DNA of 33,551 bases from a virus. The stretch covers positions 1 through 33,551 of IMG/VR virus record IMGVR_UViG_3300017971_000172; one strand, given 5' to 3'. Shown here in pieces: positions 4,697 through 24,426 of this stretch (its first letter is position 1; every line of letters starts with the position of its first letter). Position numbers and translations under genes: made by a program. Under the pieces are notes generated by a model. The model did not search any database. It was not told the origin of the DNA and saw nothing but the letters and a program-made list of their open reading frames with translations.

Positions 4697-4716
4697 CTGT
4701 CTCACGCGTGAGACAG
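4697..4716. repeat. Perfect 20-bp palindrome, copy 1
   Basis: CTGTCTCACGCGTGAGACAG spans the stop codon of the 143-aa gene and lies just upstream of the ribosome site of the GIY-YIG gene. The central 18 bp recur exactly at 10794-10811. It resembles a parS-like centromere site with two extra central bases. Confidence 0.8.
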
Positions 4717-6887: not shown

Positions 6888-7568
6888 ATGAAAGTGTATG
6901 ATGACCGAATGAAGTGGGACTGGAGCGGACGCCAGTGCGTCGCGGCACCGCTTGTTATAGATGGCGTGCCCGTCGCGGTGATGGACGGCACACCTGTCAC
7001 CGACTATGGCGAGCTGGAGGTGGACTGGGACCGCTACCTGAGAAGCGACGCCGTGGCTCTCACGGTGGGGGTCAAGGTGAACCCCGACTGGTGGGAGCCG
7101 CTGAAGGCTGCGATGGAAGCTGAGGAGACGGCGGCTGAGGAGGCATACCAACAGGAGCGAGCACAGAAGCTGAAGGAGCACGAAGAGGCGCTGGCTGATG
7201 TCAGCCACCCCAAGCACTGGCAGGCGAGGGACACGGAAAGGCTGCTGAAGGCGGCGAGGGTATCGCCTCGGGCGGCTACGAAGCCCAAGCCGTTCAGGGC
7301 TGGGGGGTGGCGCTACAAGGGGCACTGCGCCCACTGCGGCACCCCGTTCGTGGCGGCTCACGCTGGCACGACCGTCTGCTCCGAGCGGTGCGCCAAGGAG
7401 CGCAAGGCGGAGCAGGCTCGGGACGGTCGTAAGAGCCGCGCCAAGGCAGCTCAGCACAAGGCGTGCGAGGCGTGCGGGGCACCGATGGCAGGGAAGCGCA
7501 GCCACGCCGTGACCTGCTCCCCTGCGTGCCGTCAGGCGCTGAAGCGTCGCCGTGACAAGGCGGCGTGA
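6888..7568 (+). CDS. Zinc-finger protein with two C-terminal Cys4 modules, 226 aa
   Basis: ATG 6888 follows AAGGAGTAAGAA. Residues about 1-75 form a mixed domain, about 75-115 a long acidic helix or coiled coil (EAEETAAEEAYQQERAQKLK), and the C-terminal third carries two short zinc modules. The first is CAHCG...CSERC (about 145-167); the second is CEACGAPM...CSPAC (about 190-217) before a basic tail. The 70-aa protein at 11352 has the same kind of module (CAHCG...CSSRC), and both genes are followed by the same 3' repeat, so the two are probably related. Nucleic-acid binding is likely; exact role unknown. Confidence 0.8.
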   Translation: MKVYDDRMKWDWSGRQCVAAPLVIDGVPVAVMDGTPVTDYGELEVDWDRYLRSDAVALTVGVKVNPDWWEPLKAAMEAEETAAEEAYQQERAQKLKEHEEALADVSHPKHWQARDTERLLKAARVSPRAATKPKPFRAGGWRYKGHCAHCGTPFVAAHAGTTVCSERCAKERKAEQARDGRKSRAKAAQHKACEACGAPMAGKRSHAVTCSPACRQALKRRRDKAA

Positions 7569-7792
7569 GCCGCTGGGTCGTCACGGTTCGGGGTGACCCA
7601 GTTCTGGACGCGGGTCGTCACGCTTCGGGGCATCCCAGTGCCTAGCTTGAGCGACCGAAAAGTGTGACAGGGGGCGGCTAACTGCTACCGCTAACTGCTA
7701 CCCACTGCCCAGCACCTCGCCCACAACCCGCGCCACCACTAGGTCACGGGGTCACATCTCTATGGACCCGCCATCCATTTCGGTGGAAACAG
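7569..7792. repeat. 3' repeat element with hairpin after zinc-finger gene
   Basis: CTGGGTCGTC...GGTGACCCAG (7573-7601) forms a hairpin of about 10 bp. Its core CGTCACGGTTCGGGGTG (7579) is repeated imperfectly at 7616-7630 and again at 11569 after the other zinc-finger gene. AGTGTGACAGGG (7661-7672) also recurs at 11613-11624. Probably a transcription terminator or processing element. Confidence 0.5.
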
Positions 7793-7949
7793 AAGGTGGC
7801 TCATTTGAGCTACCTTGCCTTCGGGTTCGGAAACCCCAACTGGACCATTTGGTCCAGTTGTATTCAGGTGGGCAAACTCGTTTCAGTTGAAACAAGTTCT
7901 CAGGACGCCCAGTGGCGGGCAGGCAAACTTTGTTCAACTGAACAAAGTT
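7793..7949. repeat. Array of four 24-bp palindromes
   Basis: Four inverted repeats, each with 11-bp arms and a 2-bp spacer, at 7793-7816, 7837-7860, 7875-7898 and 7926-7949. Left arms are AAGGTGGCTCA, CAACTGGACCA, AACTCGTTTCA and AACTTTGTTCA. The second and fourth are perfect and the other two have one wobble-type mismatch. All share the core CA-NN-TG. The last two lie in a 51-bp direct repeat that ends with AGTTCTCAGGACGCCCA. Sequence varies but complementarity is kept. The last palindrome begins just past the stop of the leftward 120-aa gene. Confidence 0.85.
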
Positions 7950-7950
7950 C

Positions 7951-8313
7951 TCAGGACGCCCACCTCCAGCGGATGCCGTTCTTCCTGACCACAGCACCGC
8001 CTCGGTGCCCTGACTTCGGTGCCAGCCAGACCCTGACCAGTTTCCTGCGGCGGTGGTATGGAATAGTGGGGTCATCAGGCACGCCTTCCCGTGGACGCCA
8101 GACCGTCGTGGCACCCCAGCCTGCGGCTTCCAGTGCGGCGGCGAGGGTGTTGAGGGCAGTGCCCTTCTTGATGACGCCGTGCTCAACCAACAGGTCACGA
8201 AGTTCGTAGAGGCGGTAGGCAGGTGCGCGGTCACGCTCGGGGGCACTGCGCCACCACTCTCGGATTTCCTTGGACATCTGGTGGCTCTGTATCAGGTAGG
8301 TGACGGTTCCCAT
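7951..8313 (-). CDS. Hypothetical protein, 120 aa, possible winged helix
   Basis: ATG 8313 with GGGGTGCTGAGAA upstream; MSKEIREWW at 8277 is an alternative start. Residues about 25-75 (YRLYELRDLLVEHGVIKKGT, then ALNTLAAALEAAGW) look like a compact helical DNA-binding domain. The C-terminal part is basic, with RRRKLVRVWL and KNGIRWRW. No known family. It stands alone on the minus strand, between the palindrome array directly downstream of its stop and the repeat-rich region upstream, so it may be the protein that acts on one of them. That is inference from position. Confidence 0.65.
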   Translation of the reverse strand: MGTVTYLIQSHQMSKEIREWWRSAPERDRAPAYRLYELRDLLVEHGVIKKGTALNTLAAALEAAGWGATTVWRPREGVPDDPTIPYHRRRKLVRVWLAPKSGHRGGAVVRKNGIRWRWAS

Positions 8314-8362
8314 TTCTCAGCACCCCTGTGGTTTTATCCAGTAGTCAGGATTATAGCAGGGA

Positions 8363-8379
8363 GGATTGTAAGCAGTGGG
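8363..8379. repeat. 17-bp dispersed repeat, copy 2
   Basis: GGATTGTAAGCAGTGGG, identical to 6535-6551, about 50 bp upstream of the 120-aa leftward gene. Confidence 0.8.
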
Positions 8380-8574
8380 GTGTGGGCAAGGTGGGCGAGG
8401 TCACGAGGTGGCGTGGTGACCTCGCCCACGAAGTTTGCCAGCGGCGGCTGAATGATGGGGTGATTTCGTGACCTCGTGGGCTTGGTGTTCCCTACTCCTT
8501 TTTCGTGCTGGGTATGTGCGTTTCACTCTCCGATTTCATACAGGCTTTTCACTCTCTGATTTCGTGGGTGCGTT

Positions 8575-8671
8575 ACTCCTCAGTGCCAACACCACAGAGT
8601 TTCATACTCCTCAGTGTCCACACCACAGAGCGTTTTATCCTCTCACACTCCTCAGGGCTAACATTTCAGAG
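8575..8671. repeat. 25-bp repeat, three copies (fourth at 9274-9298)
   Basis: Copies at 8575-8599, 8606-8630 and 8647-8671 begin ACTCCTCAGKG and end CAGAG. A fourth copy at 9274-9298 is on the far side of the iterons. The third copy is the most diverged. Related TTTCACTCTCYGATTTC is duplicated just upstream (8521, 8548). Confidence 0.75.
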
Positions 8672-8773
8672 GGCGGGAGAATATAGGGGGGGTTCAAAAA
8701 GGGGTTCTATACAGACATTGTGGGGCGAAATGGGCTTGGTGGGCGGTGCCGAGCACGGATTTGGGGGTGGCTA

Positions 8774-8848
8774 TTCGTCACCTGAGCGCCCTTGTTCGTC
8801 ACCCGAGCGCCCTTGTTCGTCATCTGAGCGCCCTTGTTCGTCATCCGA
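8774..8848. repeat. Forward 21-bp iteron array (3.5 copies)
   Basis: Units begin at 8774, 8795, 8816 and 8837 (the last partial), each starting TTCGTCAYC and continuing YGAGCGCCCTTG. Exact 21-bp spacing, two helical turns, favours side-by-side binding of an initiator. Confidence 0.9.
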
Positions 8849-9096
8849 AAAAGCACCTCCGAGCGTGTTTGAACGAGCGTAAGGCATTGTTTTGCCGACA
8901 AAACAGCCGAGCACGGCGCTCGTTTGGGATGACGATGGTGTAGTTTAAATCTCAGTTTTTAGGAAGAAGGGAAAATATATGGGGGGTGTAAAAGCGGAAA
9001 AAACACACCCAGAGGTAGAAAAGGTCGTGTTTTAAACTGCACCATCTACACCCCAAGGCAAAAACCCGTATTTCTTGAATAAAATCAGTGCCTTAT

Positions 9097-9149
9097 GGGA
9101 TGACGATTAAATTTGCCGAGATGACGAACAAGCCTTTTGGGATGACGAT
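9097..9149. repeat. Reversed 21-bp-spaced iteron core array (3 copies)
   Basis: GGGATGACGAT at 9097, GAGATGACGAA at 9118 and GGGATGACGAT at 9139 are reverse complements of the forward iteron core. They keep the 21-bp period. Single extra cores lie at 8926-8936 (reversed) and 9205-9215 (forward). Confidence 0.85.
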
Positions 9150-9439
9150 TAAGCCCACAAGGTCACCAAGTCATTGATTCTAATAGCTTTTTTACTCCGC
9201 GCTGTTCGTCATCCCACCCTCCTGCCGTTTCCGCCCCATAGAACTGTCCCACCCATACACCACTCTCAAAAACACTCCTCAGTGTCCACACCACCGAGCA
9301 CATATAAAAGGGAGGTGCCTGAAACGCCGCCACCAAGTCACCCAGCCCACAAGGTCACGTCATACACATCATTTACCCCATTCTCCAAACCACCTCGCCG
9401 CGCTATCAACCCGCCACCAAAAATTTTTCACTCTCGCCC

Positions 9440-9468
9440 TTGACACCGTTATTCCGAGCCGCTACTAT
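9440..9468 (+). promoter_or_regulatory. Sigma-70 promoter P1
   Basis: TTGACA (9440-9445), 17-bp spacer, TACTAT (9463-9468). A leader inverted repeat CGGCAG...CTGCCG (9478-9498) follows. Shares long stretches with the promoters at 10548 and 5597. Confidence 0.88.
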
Positions 9469-9516
9469 CCTCCCCATCGGCAGCATCACCGACTGCCGCA
9501 AACTGAGGAACCAAGA

Positions 9517-9786
9517 ATGAAACGAAACCTGAACGCTTACCGCGAAGCCGTCGCCGCGCTGCCCACCGCCCTGAGCCAGCACCTGTGCTCAGCCCCGAGC
9601 GACGACATCAACGCAGACCGCGTGCCCCGCGCCGTGGTCAAGCGAGGGCACGAAGACCTGTTCGTCGGCACCCTCGCCCTCCTCCACGGCGACGCCACGA
9701 GGTCACTGGCTGGCTTCGGCACCTACGAGAAGGACGGGCAGGTGCTGGTGTGTGTTGACCAGCTTGCCATCCTGCTCCGCCGCTGA
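9517..9786 (+). CDS. Hypothetical protein, 89 aa
   Basis: ATG 9517 has GAGGAACCAAGA upstream. Begins MKRNLNAYREAVAALPTALS and ends in a hydrophobic strand-helix (GQVLVCVDQLAILLRR). No recognised domain, no signal peptide. It is the first gene behind P1 and the nearest gene to the probable origin, so an origin-linked or copy-control role is conceivable but unsupported by sequence. A 95-bp gap separates it from the next gene. Confidence 0.8.
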   Translation: MKRNLNAYREAVAALPTALSQHLCSAPSDDINADRVPRAVVKRGHEDLFVGTLALLHGDATRSLAGFGTYEKDGQVLVCVDQLAILLRR

Positions 9787-10623: not shown

Positions 10624-11355
10624 ATGACTACGAACACCCTGCCCACCGTGCCCACCACGGCACCCTCGTGGGCAGCCCTGCGCCAAGCCGCTGCGAAACT
10701 CCGCAGCACGGGACAGCAACTGGTGCTGGATGCCATCGCCGTTGGCGACCAGTTATCCGCCCTGAGACCCACCTGCGCCAGTCAGAAAGAGTTTGTCTCA
10801 CGCGTGAGACAAGAGGTGGGCTTCAGCAAGTCCTACGCCTTCAAGCTGATGAGCCTCGCCCAGCACCAGCAGCAGGTGCTGGCAGCCAAGCCCGAGAGCA
10901 TCAGGCAGGCGCTGGCGGTGCTCAGCCCAGCACCCACCCAGTCCACGCCGCCTGCGCTCGCCACAGCGCCCGCTACGCCCACCACGTCACCCAGCCACCC
11001 CGTGACCTCGGTGTTCAGTCATCCACCCACCAAGCGCAAGCCGACGCCAACCATATCCGACGCCGAACTGGAGGCAGAAGTCACCCGCAGCCTCGTGCCC
11101 GAGCACATCATCAAGCACGCCGCCACGGCGATTGCTTCGGGGCAACTCGCTGCCGAGCATCAGCACCCTGACGAGTTCGTTGAGGTTGCCATCGCCGACG
11201 CGAAGTGGCTGGTGAAGAACCTCGTGACGGAAATGAGCCGAGGTGCCGACGGGGACTTCACCGACACCAGCATCCAGATACAGGACGCCGTGTTTGATGC
11301 GCTGGCGGAGTATTGCCGCCCCGCTGACGACGAGGACGACGAGGAGATTGAATGA
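10624..11355 (+). CDS. DUF3102-like DNA-associated protein, 243 aa
   Basis: ATG 10624 has GAGGAACCAAACG upstream. Residues about 25-95 (LVLDAIAVGDQLSALRP, EFVSRVRQEVGFSKSYAFKL, MSLAQHQ) match the pattern of DUF3102-type proteins, which are common in phages and plasmids and often lie beside partition or repressor genes. A Pro/Thr-rich linker (about 100-140) leads to a C-terminal helical domain and an acidic tail DDEDDEEIE. A perfect 20-bp palindrome lies inside the coding sequence at 10793. Driven by P2; overlaps the next gene by 4 bp. Confidence 0.8.
   Translation: MTTNTLPTVPTTAPSWAALRQAAAKLRSTGQQLVLDAIAVGDQLSALRPTCASQKEFVSRVRQEVGFSKSYAFKLMSLAQHQQQVLAAKPESIRQALAVLSPAPTQSTPPALATAPATPTTSPSHPVTSVFSHPPTKRKPTPTISDAELEAEVTRSLVPEHIIKHAATAIASGQLAAEHQHPDEFVEVAIADAKWLVKNLVTEMSRGADGDFTDTSIQIQDAVFDALAEYCRPADDEDDEEIE
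10793..10812. repeat. Perfect 20-bp palindrome, copy 2
   Basis: TTGTCTCACGCGTGAGACAA; the central 18 bp equal those at 4698-4715. It lies in codons for residues about 57-63 of the DUF3102-like protein. Confidence 0.8.
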
Positions 11356-13933: not shown

Positions 13934-13953
13934 ACAACCAAGAGGAGAACGAG

Positions 13954-14247
13954 ATGACCGAGCAAACCATTACTGAGTATGTATGTGAGGCGGTGCCCGA
14001 CCCCACCGACCTGCGTCGTGCCACCTTGGCGCAGGCGATGTGGAAGGTGCTGGAACAGCGGCGCAGGGCACTGGACTTTGACCAACCGTTTGACCGCCTG
14101 ATTCTGGAATGGGCACACGTAGATGTGGAGCGCGACGAGGCGTATGAGGTGTATAGACGCGCCAACCATAAAGCCGAGGCGGCGTGGCGCAAATGGCTGG
14201 ACACCCTGCCCAAGGGACCGCCGATGCGGAAGAAAACTGGCAACTGA
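13954..14247 (+). CDS. Hypothetical protein, 97 aa
   Basis: The frame is open upstream, but ATG 13954 follows the ribosome site AGAGGAGAACGAG and the shared leader hairpin, so it is the likely start. Helical protein with two segments, LAQAMWKVLEQRRRALDF and RDEAYEVYRRANHKAEAAWR, likely coiled. No domain recognised. Confidence 0.8.
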   Translation: MTEQTITEYVCEAVPDPTDLRRATLAQAMWKVLEQRRRALDFDQPFDRLILEWAHVDVERDEAYEVYRRANHKAEAAWRKWLDTLPKGPPMRKKTGN

Positions 14248-19658: not shown

Positions 19659-22600
19659 ATGTCAGAACTGAGCAAGATTGCCGATGCCACTCGGCAGGGA
19701 CTGGGTGACCCCCGCGCCGTTGTCCTGAAACAGATTATTGAGCGTGCCCGCCACTCGGCGTTTGCCATCCACACGGGCAAAAACTACGCCCCCGCCCGCC
19801 ACAAGACCCAGCCATCCAACCCGCCCGAATACGGGCGCACGAAGGACGGCGAGTGGTATCAGAAGAAGCGCCTGCTGGAACTGGAAAACGGACTGGCTGT
19901 CGCCCTTATCGCCAAGCACCTCGCGGGCGAAGCGCGGCTCGGCGTGTATTTTCACGAACCCGACGCCACCACCATCCGTGTGGCAGTGCTGGACTTTGAC
20001 GACAAGTCGGGCGAGGTGGGCGACGGCGTGTGGGAGAAAACCGCCAAAGTAGCAGCGTCCTTGCGGGAAGCAGGAATGAACCCCGTCGCCGAGCGGTCAG
20101 GTGGCGGCAAGGGCACCCACCTCTGGTTGCTGTGGGATGAACCACAGGAAGGCAAGGATGTCCGCGCAATGCTACAGAGTGTGCTGGAGGAGCACGGGCT
20201 GCGCGAGGGCACCAAGGGGCTATCCGAAGGCACCGTGGAGATTTTCCCGAAGCAGGATTACCTGCGGTTGGTCGTTGCGAAGGACGCTGATGGCACCCCG
20301 CGCCCGACGGGTGCCTATGGCAACCTGTGTGCCCTGCCCTTCAACCGCCAGTCGGCGTTGCTGGACGACGACGGCAACCCGATAGAAATCCAGCACGGCT
20401 ACCAGATGCCGATTTCCCCTGCGGTTCCGACGATAGTTTCCGCGCTTGACCCATCCAACGTGCCCGCCGCCATTCTGGAACACGCGGCGGCAGTCAATGA
20501 CGACCTGAGCCACGGTATCGGCGGGGAGAAAAGCCATTCGCCGCCGACGCTCCAAAGGGTTCAGGATGCGATGCCTTGGCTGGATGCCGACGACACCCAC
20601 CTCTGGCAAGCAACCGTCCAGTGGCTGAAGCGACTTGGTGACCTGCTCGGCGATGACGAGATGAAAGCCCTGTGGCTGGAGTTCAGCGCACGAGGCACCA
20701 ACACCGCGAGGAACGACCAACCGCGCTACGACCCCGAGGTGATGTGGGATACCGCGACACCTCGTGTTGACGCGGGAGCCGCAGCGGGTTCCCTTTTCAA
20801 AGTTACCCGTGAAGCAGCACTGGCTGCGATGAAGTCCGACAGCGGTGCCAAGGCGTGGTCAAAGGACGGACGAGCCGCCTACATCTACTTGCTGGCGCAC
20901 CACACGAAGGTGCTGGAAGAAGAGTATGCGGGTGGTGCTTACCCCAGCGACAAGGGACTGAAGAACGCCGCCAAGGAGATGAAGGACAACGCCGAACCTT
21001 CTGGCGCGGATGTCGTGTCCCAGCAGGCGTGGGAGTTGTTCATTGACCAGTATGGCAACCCTCGTATCTGGATGGACACAGGCAAACGCTTTGACGCCTT
21101 GATAATCAGCAGCGATGCCTTCGTCCGCCACTGGAACTACGCCCGCATCCAACAGGGTGAGAAGGCGCTGAGTGAAGCCAAGATGGGGCAGCTTCAGCAG
21201 GAGTTGGAAGCCCGTGCCGAAGTGGAAGGCGGCGAACATACCGTCCACCTCCGCACTGCGCTGGACAACGGGGACTATGTGCTTGACCTTGGCGATGACG
21301 ACGGGCACTGCGTGCGCGTCAACGCCAACGGCGTGACCGTTGAGAAGAACACGAGGGTGAAGTTCATCCGCCCTCGCGGCTTCGGCACCTTACCGATGCC
21401 TGACCTGTCATTCCCCACACCGCGTGACGCCTTCCTTGAGTGTCGGAATATGAACGCGATGCTGTTGCTGAAGACCAACGATGCGTTCTGGATGTGGCTG
21501 GTGGCAATGTTGAACACCCTGATGTGCGACACCCCCTACAACCACATCAACTTCTGGGGCGAGAGTGGCGTAGCCAAGTCGTCGGGCATGGCACTGAGCC
21601 GCTCGCTGATTGACCCCAGAAAGACCAGACACCAAGCAGGTAGCACACGGCTGGACAAGGAAGCCATCAACGCCGCCGCTGCGGGTCAGCGGATGCCGTG
21701 CTTTGACAACGTGAAGAAAATTGAAACCTCCGTTCAGGCGTATATGTGTGCCGCGATAACAGGCACCGAGGCGCAGGAACGTGCCCTGTATACCAACTTT
21801 GAATTGGCAGCCTCAGAAGTTCACTGCCCGCTGACGACAACCTCCATCCACCCACTGGCAACGGAACCCGACCTGATTGAGCGGACTGTTTCCCTGCCGT
21901 GCGCCAAACCGAAAGCCTACATATCACCCAAGGTCATAGCACGGAAGCTAGAGCAACAAACACCTCGTTTCACAGGCGCGTTACTGGTGATGTTGAAGGA
22001 GGCAATGGGGCGCTGGGACGATGTGCCCGATGCGCTGATTAACCGCCAACGCTTCCTTGATTTCGTGCGGCTGGGTGAAGCCCTGTTTATGGCGATGGGG
22101 CGTAAGTCAGGTGCTTTCCTTGAGGTGTATAACCGCCAACGCCGCGACAACACCGCTGACCTGCTCGCGGGACGGGCGACCTCCAAACGGGTCATCAAAT
22201 ACCTGCGACAAGAAGCAGAGAAGTTGAAAGGGCGGCGGCTTGGCAAGGAAGACCCTGCCAAGCGAGCGGAAGCCGCCCGTGCCCACCGTTCGTATTGCTA
22301 CGACAACGGTGACGGCACCGTGGTTTGGTGCGGCACTGCGTCGGTGTTTTACAACCTGTTCACCAAAGTGGAGCCAATTACGATGGATGAAGCGAAGCAC
22401 GATGCCTTCCCCTCATCCCCGCATTGGTTGGGGCGCGTCCTCAGCACTGACAGTCCTGCCTTGCGGCACATCGGCATCCACTTCACGGGCGGCAAACGCA
22501 CCAAGTGGGGGAGCCAGATGGAGTTCGCCGTAGAAATCGAGACGTTGGTCGCTGGTTCCTCTTGGCTGGACGAAGAACTGGGTTTCAAGGAAGTGCCCAC

Positions 22601-22733
22601 CCCTCGCCAGACTACCGACGCGGATGTTGCTGCCGACGCCTTGGTGAAGAGGCTGCGCGATGGCGGGATGTCAGATAAGGAGATAGTGGCGGTGATGCGG
22701 AGTGCCGCCGCGAACGCGAACGCCACCAAATAA
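19659..22733 (+). CDS. Primase-helicase (AEP primase plus ATPase), 1024 aa
   Basis: ATG 19659 follows TTGAGGAAACCGCC and decides the start. The N-terminal domain (about 90-240) has archaeo-eukaryotic primase features: metal ligands Asp112 and Asp114 in LDFDD, Lys151-Gly-Thr-His154 in GGGKGTHLWL, and VEIFPKQD with GNLCALPFNR after it. The C-terminal part has a Walker A motif Gly634-E-S-G-V-A-Lys640-Ser followed by conserved helicase-like segments (ITGTEAQERAL, EPDLIERTVSLPCAKP) of the DUF927/superfamily 3 type. It would make primers and unwind the origin, acting as the core replication enzyme. It is the last gene of the operon from P3. Primase and helicase fusions of this form occur in plasmids, phages and satellites. 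Confidence 0.88.
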   Translation: MSELSKIADATRQGLGDPRAVVLKQIIERARHSAFAIHTGKNYAPARHKTQPSNPPEYGRTKDGEWYQKKRLLELENGLAVALIAKHLAGEARLGVYFHEPDATTIRVAVLDFDDKSGEVGDGVWEKTAKVAASLREAGMNPVAERSGGGKGTHLWLLWDEPQEGKDVRAMLQSVLEEHGLREGTKGLSEGTVEIFPKQDYLRLVVAKDADGTPRPTGAYGNLCALPFNRQSALLDDDGNPIEIQHGYQMPISPAVPTIVSALDPSNVPAAILEHAAAVNDDLSHGIGGEKSHSPPTLQRVQDAMPWLDADDTHLWQATVQWLKRLGDLLGDDEMKALWLEFSARGTNTARNDQPRYDPEVMWDTATPRVDAGAAAGSLFKVTREAALAAMKSDSGAKAWSKDGRAAYIYLLAHHTKVLEEEYAGGAYPSDKGLKNAAKEMKDNAEPSGADVVSQQAWELFIDQYGNPRIWMDTGKRFDALIISSDAFVRHWNYARIQQGEKALSEAKMGQLQQELEARAEVEGGEHTVHLRTALDNGDYVLDLGDDDGHCVRVNANGVTVEKNTRVKFIRPRGFGTLPMPDLSFPTPRDAFLECRNMNAMLLLKTNDAFWMWLVAMLNTLMCDTPYNHINFWGESGVAKSSGMALSRSLIDPRKTRHQAGSTRLDKEAINAAAAGQRMPCFDNVKKIETSVQAYMCAAITGTEAQERALYTNFELAASEVHCPLTTTSIHPLATEPDLIERTVSLPCAKPKAYISPKVIARKLEQQTPRFTGALLVMLKEAMGRWDDVPDALINRQRFLDFVRLGEALFMAMGRKSGAFLEVYNRQRRDNTADLLAGRATSKRVIKYLRQEAEKLKGRRLGKEDPAKRAEAARAHRSYCYDNGDGTVVWCGTASVFYNLFTKVEPITMDEAKHDAFPSSPHWLGRVLSTDSPALRHIGIHFTGGKRTKWGSQMEFAVEIETLVAGSSWLDEELGFKEVPTPRQTTDADVAADALVKRLRDGGMSDKEIVAVMRSAAANANATK

Positions 22734-23767: not shown

Positions 23768-24426
23768 CAAAAACCTCCAACTTGAAATTTCACGGGTGGC
23801 TTACCAGCGGCAAGCCAGTTGTCATACAGCGCAGGCTTGCCAATCATCTGCGCCCACTCATACAGGAAAACTTCGGGTTGCTGGATAATCATCCGCTGCC
23901 GCTGTTCGGGGGTGGCGTCCAGCAACGCCTGCTTCGGGTTGAACGGTTTCTCAGCCTGCTTCGCCTTGGGGCTATGGCGGCGGAGAAGCACCTCCTGTAA
24001 CTCGGTGTCATACCGCAACGCATCGGATGCGCGGAGCCTGCCAGATGCCTTATCGGCACGGAACTGAGCGATGGAAGCGTTCGTCCTGAAGTGCCCGTAG
24101 GGGTGCGTCGGTTTGGGCTGGGCTTCAGGCTTCTGGACGGGGATGGCATAGAAGTTCCCGTGCGGGATATCACTGCCGTCGGCGAGGAACACGCGCTCCC
24201 GTTTCCCGTTGCGCCTGTTCGGTGCCTTCGGTTTCGCAGCCTCCTCCAGCGCCCTCGCCATCTCGGCAGAGGGCGGCACTGGCACTTCCACCAACGTGCG
24301 GATACCGTTTTGTTCCACGACGGCGAACTGCTTCTTCGGTGCTGGCTTACCGCCTGCGCGGCGACCTTGTGGCTGCGGTGCCTCGGCGAACGGGACGTTG
24401 CCCATATTTCTGTGGAAGTCGCTCAT
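23767..24426 (-). CDS. Late-operon protein, 219 aa
   Basis: ATG 24426 overlaps the preceding stop (ATGA). The N-terminal part is Pro/Lys-rich and likely flexible (EAPQPQGRRAGGKPAPKKQF). The C-terminal half is helical (DATPEQRQRMIIQQPEVFLY, EWAQMIGKPALYDNWLAAGK). No recognised domain. Belongs with the virion-like gene set by position. Confidence 0.75.
   Translation of the reverse strand: MSDFHRNMGNVPFAEAPQPQGRRAGGKPAPKKQFAVVEQNGIRTLVEVPVPPSAEMARALEEAAKPKAPNRRNGKRERVFLADGSDIPHGNFYAIPVQKPEAQPKPTHPYGHFRTNASIAQFRADKASGRLRASDALRYDTELQEVLLRRHSPKAKQAEKPFNPKQALLDATPEQRQRMIIQQPEVFLYEWAQMIGKPALYDNWLAAGKPPVKFQVGGF

Follow-up and report, generated by a model that had tools for sequence, protein, structure and literature searches.

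Integron attC sites are recognised by the shape of a hairpin and not by the sequence of its stem, and carry an R box of the form RYYYAAC/GTTRRRY. Glycine riboswitch aptamers, which occur as tandem copies, contain the wording GGCAA-hairpin-UCUCAGG. Paired arms can also be a product of replication. Template switching acts without selection to make the arms of an inverted repeat uniform and to flip the spacer between them (PMC8794818, PMC8604942), and multi-base compensatory changes can be created in the same way (PMC8794818). A search of the literature for tandem phage hairpins similar to those described here returned nothing closer than these template-switching studies.

The locus lies in IMG/VR virus record IMGVR_UViG_3300017971_000172, the whole of which (33,551 bases) was analysed and is referred to as the window. 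It holds a tandem stem-loop motif that, judged from sequence comparison, would function as a nucleic acid in its folded state, most probably as minus-strand RNA; this reading has a probability of roughly 45%.

Four Dyads Between Convergent Genes

The phage encodes a tyrosine integrase, an AEP-type primase-helicase (PF22548) and a 2253-aa virion protein with a transglycosylase domain. The primase-helicase (19659-22733) has an AEP-TOTE primase domain (PF22548); its phage relatives are only weak ones, BcepC6B and Microbacterium phage Zeta1847, and a search of IMG/VR found no close relatives of the primase. The array is flanked by two genes that converge on it, 6888-7568 (+) and 7951-8313 (-), and occupies one edge of a mostly non-coding 1.9-kb region (7568-9517).

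7793-7816, no strand assigned: unit A, AAGGTGGCTC-ATTT-GAGCTACCTT; 9 of 10 stem pairs are Watson-Crick, the other is G-T on the plus strand
7837-7860, no strand assigned: unit B, CAACTGGACC-ATTT-GGTCCAGTTG; perfect
7870-7912, minus strand: unit C, 43-nt motif with hairpin AACTCGTTTC-AGTT-GAAACAAGTT at 7875-7898 and flanks GGCA and CTCAGGACGCCCA
7921-7963, minus strand: unit D, 43-nt motif with hairpin AACTTTGTTC-AACT-GAACAAAGTT at 7926-7949 and flanks as in C (GGCA and CTCAGGACGCCCA)
7951-8313, minus strand: 120-aa ORF directly upstream of the array on this strand; codon use coding-like

The initial annotation described four 24-bp dyads with 11-bp arms around 2 bp, and its coordinates and count were right. 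When 11+2+11 dyads with no more than one mismatch are sought throughout the window, four and no others appear, all within 157 bp, against 0.5 expected in the whole window (first-order Markov resampling). The arms are perfect in B and D, but A has one G-T and C one C-A opposition, and arms said to differ completely between most units in fact have AACT...AGTT near the stem foot in common in B, C and D. The duplication of C and D is real (copies 7871-7911 and 7922-7962, spacing 51, 83% identical), and the joint arm changes claimed for it hold for two of the three differing pairs (G-C/T-A and T-A/G-C), the third being C-A in C and T-A in D. A protein-coding role for the array was rejected: overlapping ORFs of 137 and 164 aa score as non-coding by their codons, and the frames are not open in both this phage and the relative described below.

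Several further repeats occur in the window. An 18-bp perfect palindrome, TGTCTCACGCGTGAGACA, is found at 4697-4716 and at 10793-10812, 6 kb apart; one copy is inside a coding ORF (10624-11355), and it resembles a parS or repressor site. Two copies of GGGTCGTCACGSTTCGGGG with a spacing of 37 and a tandem 13-bp repeat, GCTAACTGCTACC, lie at 7575-7639 and 7677-7702. A 39-bp inverted repeat at 8391-8429 has 14-bp perfect arms (GTGGGCGAGGTCAC/GTGACCTCGCCCAC), and a 26-nt hairpin-like repeat, ACTCCTCAGTGYCMACACCACMGAG (consensus of three), occurs at 8575, 8606, 8647 and 9274, the copy at 8647 being 69% alike; one copy is followed by a T-run on the minus strand. There are also 3.3 copies of a 21-bp iteron, TTCGTCAYCYGAGCGCCCTTG, at 8774-8848 and scattered inverted ATGACGA motifs at 8923-9149, where the GC content is the lowest of the window (0.51 at 8501-9500). 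The iteron and ATGACGA region is a candidate replication origin.

A Related Phage

Use of the conserved flank AGTTCTCAGGACGCCCA as a query led to one true relative, IMGVR_UViG_3300017971_000178 (28,682 bp; hereafter G001). It is syntenic with the window and diverged from it, with 28% identity in the large virion protein and 43% in that protein's neighbour, and its gene order appears colinear when G001 is read as a circle. Far apart as the two phages otherwise are, they share a 293-bp stretch (window 13944-14235) at 94% identity. This is evidently a recent exchange of a 96-aa gene, the IMG/VR relatives of which are confined to G001.

7845-7976, no strand assigned: segment alignable to G001 24174-24311 (77% identity); conservation ends at CCAGCGGATGC

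The C/D element is present twice in G001, as GGCAAACTCTGTGCGGCGGCACAGAGTTCTCAGGACGCCCA and GGCAAACTTTATGCGGCTGCATAAAGTTCTCAGGACGCCCA. The flanks GGCAAACT...AGTTCTCAGGACGCCCA are identical to those of the window while stems and loops are new, and the linker between the copies has diverged in sequence and length (10 vs 16 nt) within the aligned segment. The comparison with homologous elements proposed in the initial annotation thus turned out differently for the two halves of the array. C and D have counterparts with flanks and geometry kept and with new, compensated stems; in the counterpart of B, around CCATTTGG, most of the pairing is gone, and no counterpart of A can be recognised. Because B has decayed and A cannot be recognised in G001, the window units are unequal, and C and D make up the conserved element. 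Sequence support for the candidate motif is accordingly strong for C/D and weak for A/B, and the loss of pairing in B counts against an RNA reading. The core CA-NN-TG noted earlier is true of the four window units, but the G001 copies have C-GGCG-G and C-GGCT-G, and the geometry that survives the comparison is 10 bp plus 4 nt, not 11 plus 2.

The gene nearest to the G001 array is a 94-aa HTH_31 gene (PF13560) on the same strand, with the array 3' of it. In both phages, then, a small ORF on the minus strand (120 aa; 94-aa HTH) is followed on its 3' side by the array, in syntenic position and in the same orientation. A C-like hairpin at G001 24417 resembles C more closely in inverted orientation, with 22 of 24 letters matching as against 20 in direct orientation. 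The unit D palindrome recurs in G001 as an isolated exact copy (L005 2095-2118), about 90 bp after the integrase gene; it has GGCA before it and no CTCAGGAC after it, and is located between two copies of GCGCCAGGCGTGATGTTG.

A second array in G001 (L005 8842-9250), 170 bp beyond the C/D copies, has eight units of 49-50 nt, with spacings of 50, 75, 49, 49, 49, 49 and 50. Linkers and outer arms are conserved, and the 15-nt core TGCG-N7-CGCA is variable and complementary, with double changes in five of the seven inner pairs; in one unit the core is TGTC...GACA. Two cores, GAATTTC and GAAATTC, are reverse complements of one another. Complementarity extends to the bases at the centre in all eight units, where a hairpin cannot pair, a feature less in keeping with RNA than with DNA symmetry or template switching.

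Beyond G001, searches gave little. Rfam (4227 families, both phages) had nothing at gathering score and some chance microRNA matches far below threshold, and the array had no BLAST match among phages and plasmids. DNA-pattern searches returned 3, 32, 1 and 27 viral matches, with paired units in G001 only and the others due to chance; seven matches of a 17-mer in bacterial genomes are no more than chance for a collection of that size. The covariance search that had been suggested, run with a model (R1) on ten contigs sharing the virion-protein module and on BcepC6B and BA3, gave nothing credible, and weak extra matches at G001 13132 and G376 11173 are read as chance. R1 likewise found nothing in 398 Pseudomonadota genomes, a weak negative given that Pseudomonadota may not be the host's group.

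Pairing, Strand and a Proposed Role

The pairing evidence comes from two viruses and four full units, namely C, D and the two G001 copies. Apart from the outermost column on each side, flanks and stem foot do not vary at all among these four copies, whereas the inner stem and loop vary between two diverged phages; this contrast in rate has a p of about 2e-6 (Fisher test) for copies that are not independent. In four of the ten stem pairs both partners have changed. Stem cells are paired in 39 of 40 cases, compared with 29-46% for structures slid by 1-3 columns, and the covariation score is 0.36-0.39 against 0.12-0.16 for shuffles and at most 0.15 for the slid controls. Compensatory stem change beyond controls is therefore seen in C, D and the G001 copies, in few sequences and in a form that template switching can mimic.

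In the shape predicted for the minus strand, a closing stem of 4 bp (GGGC/GCCY) is followed by a 7-nt bulge on one side only (GUCCUGA) and then by an 11-bp stem, which has G-U at the foot and carries a loop of 4 nt. When four pairs are counted in the closing stem, all 60 pair cells are standard on this strand, seven of them G-U; reading these pairs on the plus strand leaves 53 of 60 standard. The fold z is -2.8 to -3.9 for minus-strand units and -1.4 to -2.1 for plus-strand ones. The minus strand can be taken as the structured one with moderate confidence, and no higher because the seven G-U cells may go back to about three independent events and because the wobble of unit A falls on the plus strand. 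In both repeat types CCYGA occurs within 14 nt 5' of the hairpin on the minus strand (11 of 16 hairpins, compared with 3.8% of 14-mers in the two genomes), a contrast that is no probability because the hairpins are related by duplication.

What might such an RNA do? Hairpin D begins one base past the stop codon of the 120-aa minus-strand ORF, so the array would be the trailer of that ORF, at the 3' end of a transcript carrying the small minus-strand gene; a scan at the array found no sigma-70-like promoter and no terminator. The fixed bulge (CCUGA) beside the helix would be the recognised part, and its reader could be a phage or host RNA-binding protein or a processing enzyme. The upper stem would need only to be a stem, acting as a mere spacer; template switching during replication would renew its letters, and selection would remove the copies that break it. 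A more elaborate proposal, which we regard as unlikely, is a phage RNA system with a fixed CCYGA bulge and free stems, in which two repeat families (43-nt and 49-nt) of one phage lineage would be read by a dedicated RNA-binding protein while template switching keeps the stems perfect.

Alternative Explanations

Could the stems have stayed complementary without selection on their fold? Template switching may by itself maintain the complementarity of the arms, in palindromic repeats that have little or no function; this account is rather unlikely as the whole explanation and has marks in its favour. The changes between C and D are clustered, and their loops AGTT and AACT are reverse complements, as are the two G001 cores named above; the best match of the hairpin at 24417 to C is the inverted one, and the 49-nt units are complementary even at the central base, 8 of 8. 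Template switching does not account for the fixed 24-nt length, nor for the fact that none of the four copies shows a change in the unpaired CTCAGGAC or the closing GGC/GCC while the linker beside them has diverged. Because its marks (inverted loops and cores, clustered changes) are present, compensation alone is no proof of selection. The initial annotation equated conserved pairing with selection on the hairpin, and this was too strong, as template switching yields the same without selection and inverted spacers are seen here; the C/D comparison does speak for it. The most economical view is that both operate, template switching supplying paired stems and selection keeping the motif and its shape.

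It is distinctly unlikely that the units act as double-stranded DNA dyads, that is, as operator or partition sites for a dimeric protein such as the 120-aa product, with variants differing in affinity. Palindromes of fixed length do stand beside a gene for a possibly winged-helix protein, although this is a weak pointer: the 120-aa product has no family match and no close relatives in IMG/VR, a low-confidence predicted model has a winged-helix-like order of elements, and a fold search with this model gave weak winged-helix-like matches and nothing else. The HTH_31 gene nearest to the array in G001, the exact D palindrome alone past the G001 integrase and the symmetry up to the centre of the 49-nt units are also in keeping with operators. 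A dimer site, however, needs conserved half-sites, and here six inner arm positions vary and stay complementary; of symmetric half-sites, only AACT/AGTT is common to B, C, D and the G001 copies. In addition, the conserved flank CTCAGGACGCCCA lies on one side only, without a symmetric partner, and the 120-aa protein is without a counterpart in G001.

An origin-linked role is improbable. The units would then be single-stranded or cruciform DNA hairpins for initiation or primase entry, in agreement with their place at the edge of the mostly non-coding region that has the iterons, the ATGACGA motifs and the lowest GC, with the AEP-type primase (PF22548) of the phage, and with the similarly repeat-rich intergenic region around the G001 array. 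Nevertheless, the iterons are about 0.8 kb away and could make an origin alone, G001 lacks a low-GC stretch by its array (0.52-0.68 per 100 bp), and the G-U asymmetry and fold strength point to an RNA strand. Most improbable is that the units are tandem intrinsic terminators serving the 3' ends of the two flanking genes, 6888-7568 (+) and 7951-8313 (-): the position between convergent genes, the stability of the hairpins and the start of hairpin D right after a stop codon suit this role, but none of the units is followed by a U-tract on either strand, a terminator scan finds none, and the conserved bulge would not be needed.

Other candidates were dismissed on single points: for recombinase sites, no footprint of recombination was seen (the single D copy by the integrase of G001 stays unexplained), stop-codon readthrough or a SECIS-like element (UGA by hairpin) is rejected because a further stop arises in the G001 stem, and kissing of loops C (AGTT) and D (AACT), which are complementary in the window, fails in G001 (GGCG, GGCT). 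Among the three options of the initial annotation, a structured RNA is thus the one favoured by G-U strand asymmetry and folding, operators are a lesser possibility and recombinase sites are without support.

Comparison With Known Systems

If the stems are selected for shape alone, the array would offer a compact natural case in which to apportion compensatory change between selection and template switching, because invariant unpaired flanks adjoin freely changing stems in tandem copies. If it is an RNA, it would add a new motif to temperate phages about which little is known; a purely mutational product would be a warning against inferring RNA structure from compensated stems.

Integron attC sites resemble the favoured RNA reading in being recognised by shape rather than by stem letters, but the R box RYYYAAC...GTTRRRY is absent (GGCAAAC...GTTCTCA here) and no integron integrase was seen. 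The plus strand of the array has the tandem GGCAA-hairpin-UCUCAGG wording of glycine riboswitches; the rest of the core is missing, there is no Rfam match even at E up to 5, and folding favours the other strand. A CsrA sponge of the CsrB/RsmZ type was also rejected, with no GGA in the loops (ATTT, ATTT, AGTT, AACT), CAGGACG in the linkers only and no Rfam match.

Closer likenesses are found elsewhere. As in structured RNA candidates obtained from comparative genomics (PMC2864571), a fixed single-stranded motif is combined with compensated stems in an intergenic, tandem arrangement; here the examples are fewer, the neighbouring small ORFs are the sole gene association, and the motif is known from sequence alone. 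With quasipalindromes under template switching (PMC8794818, PMC8604942) the array shares clustered compensated changes, perfected arms and inverted spacers, but it differs from them in that the unpaired flanks are invariant too and that a fixed tandem geometry recurs in two diverged phages.
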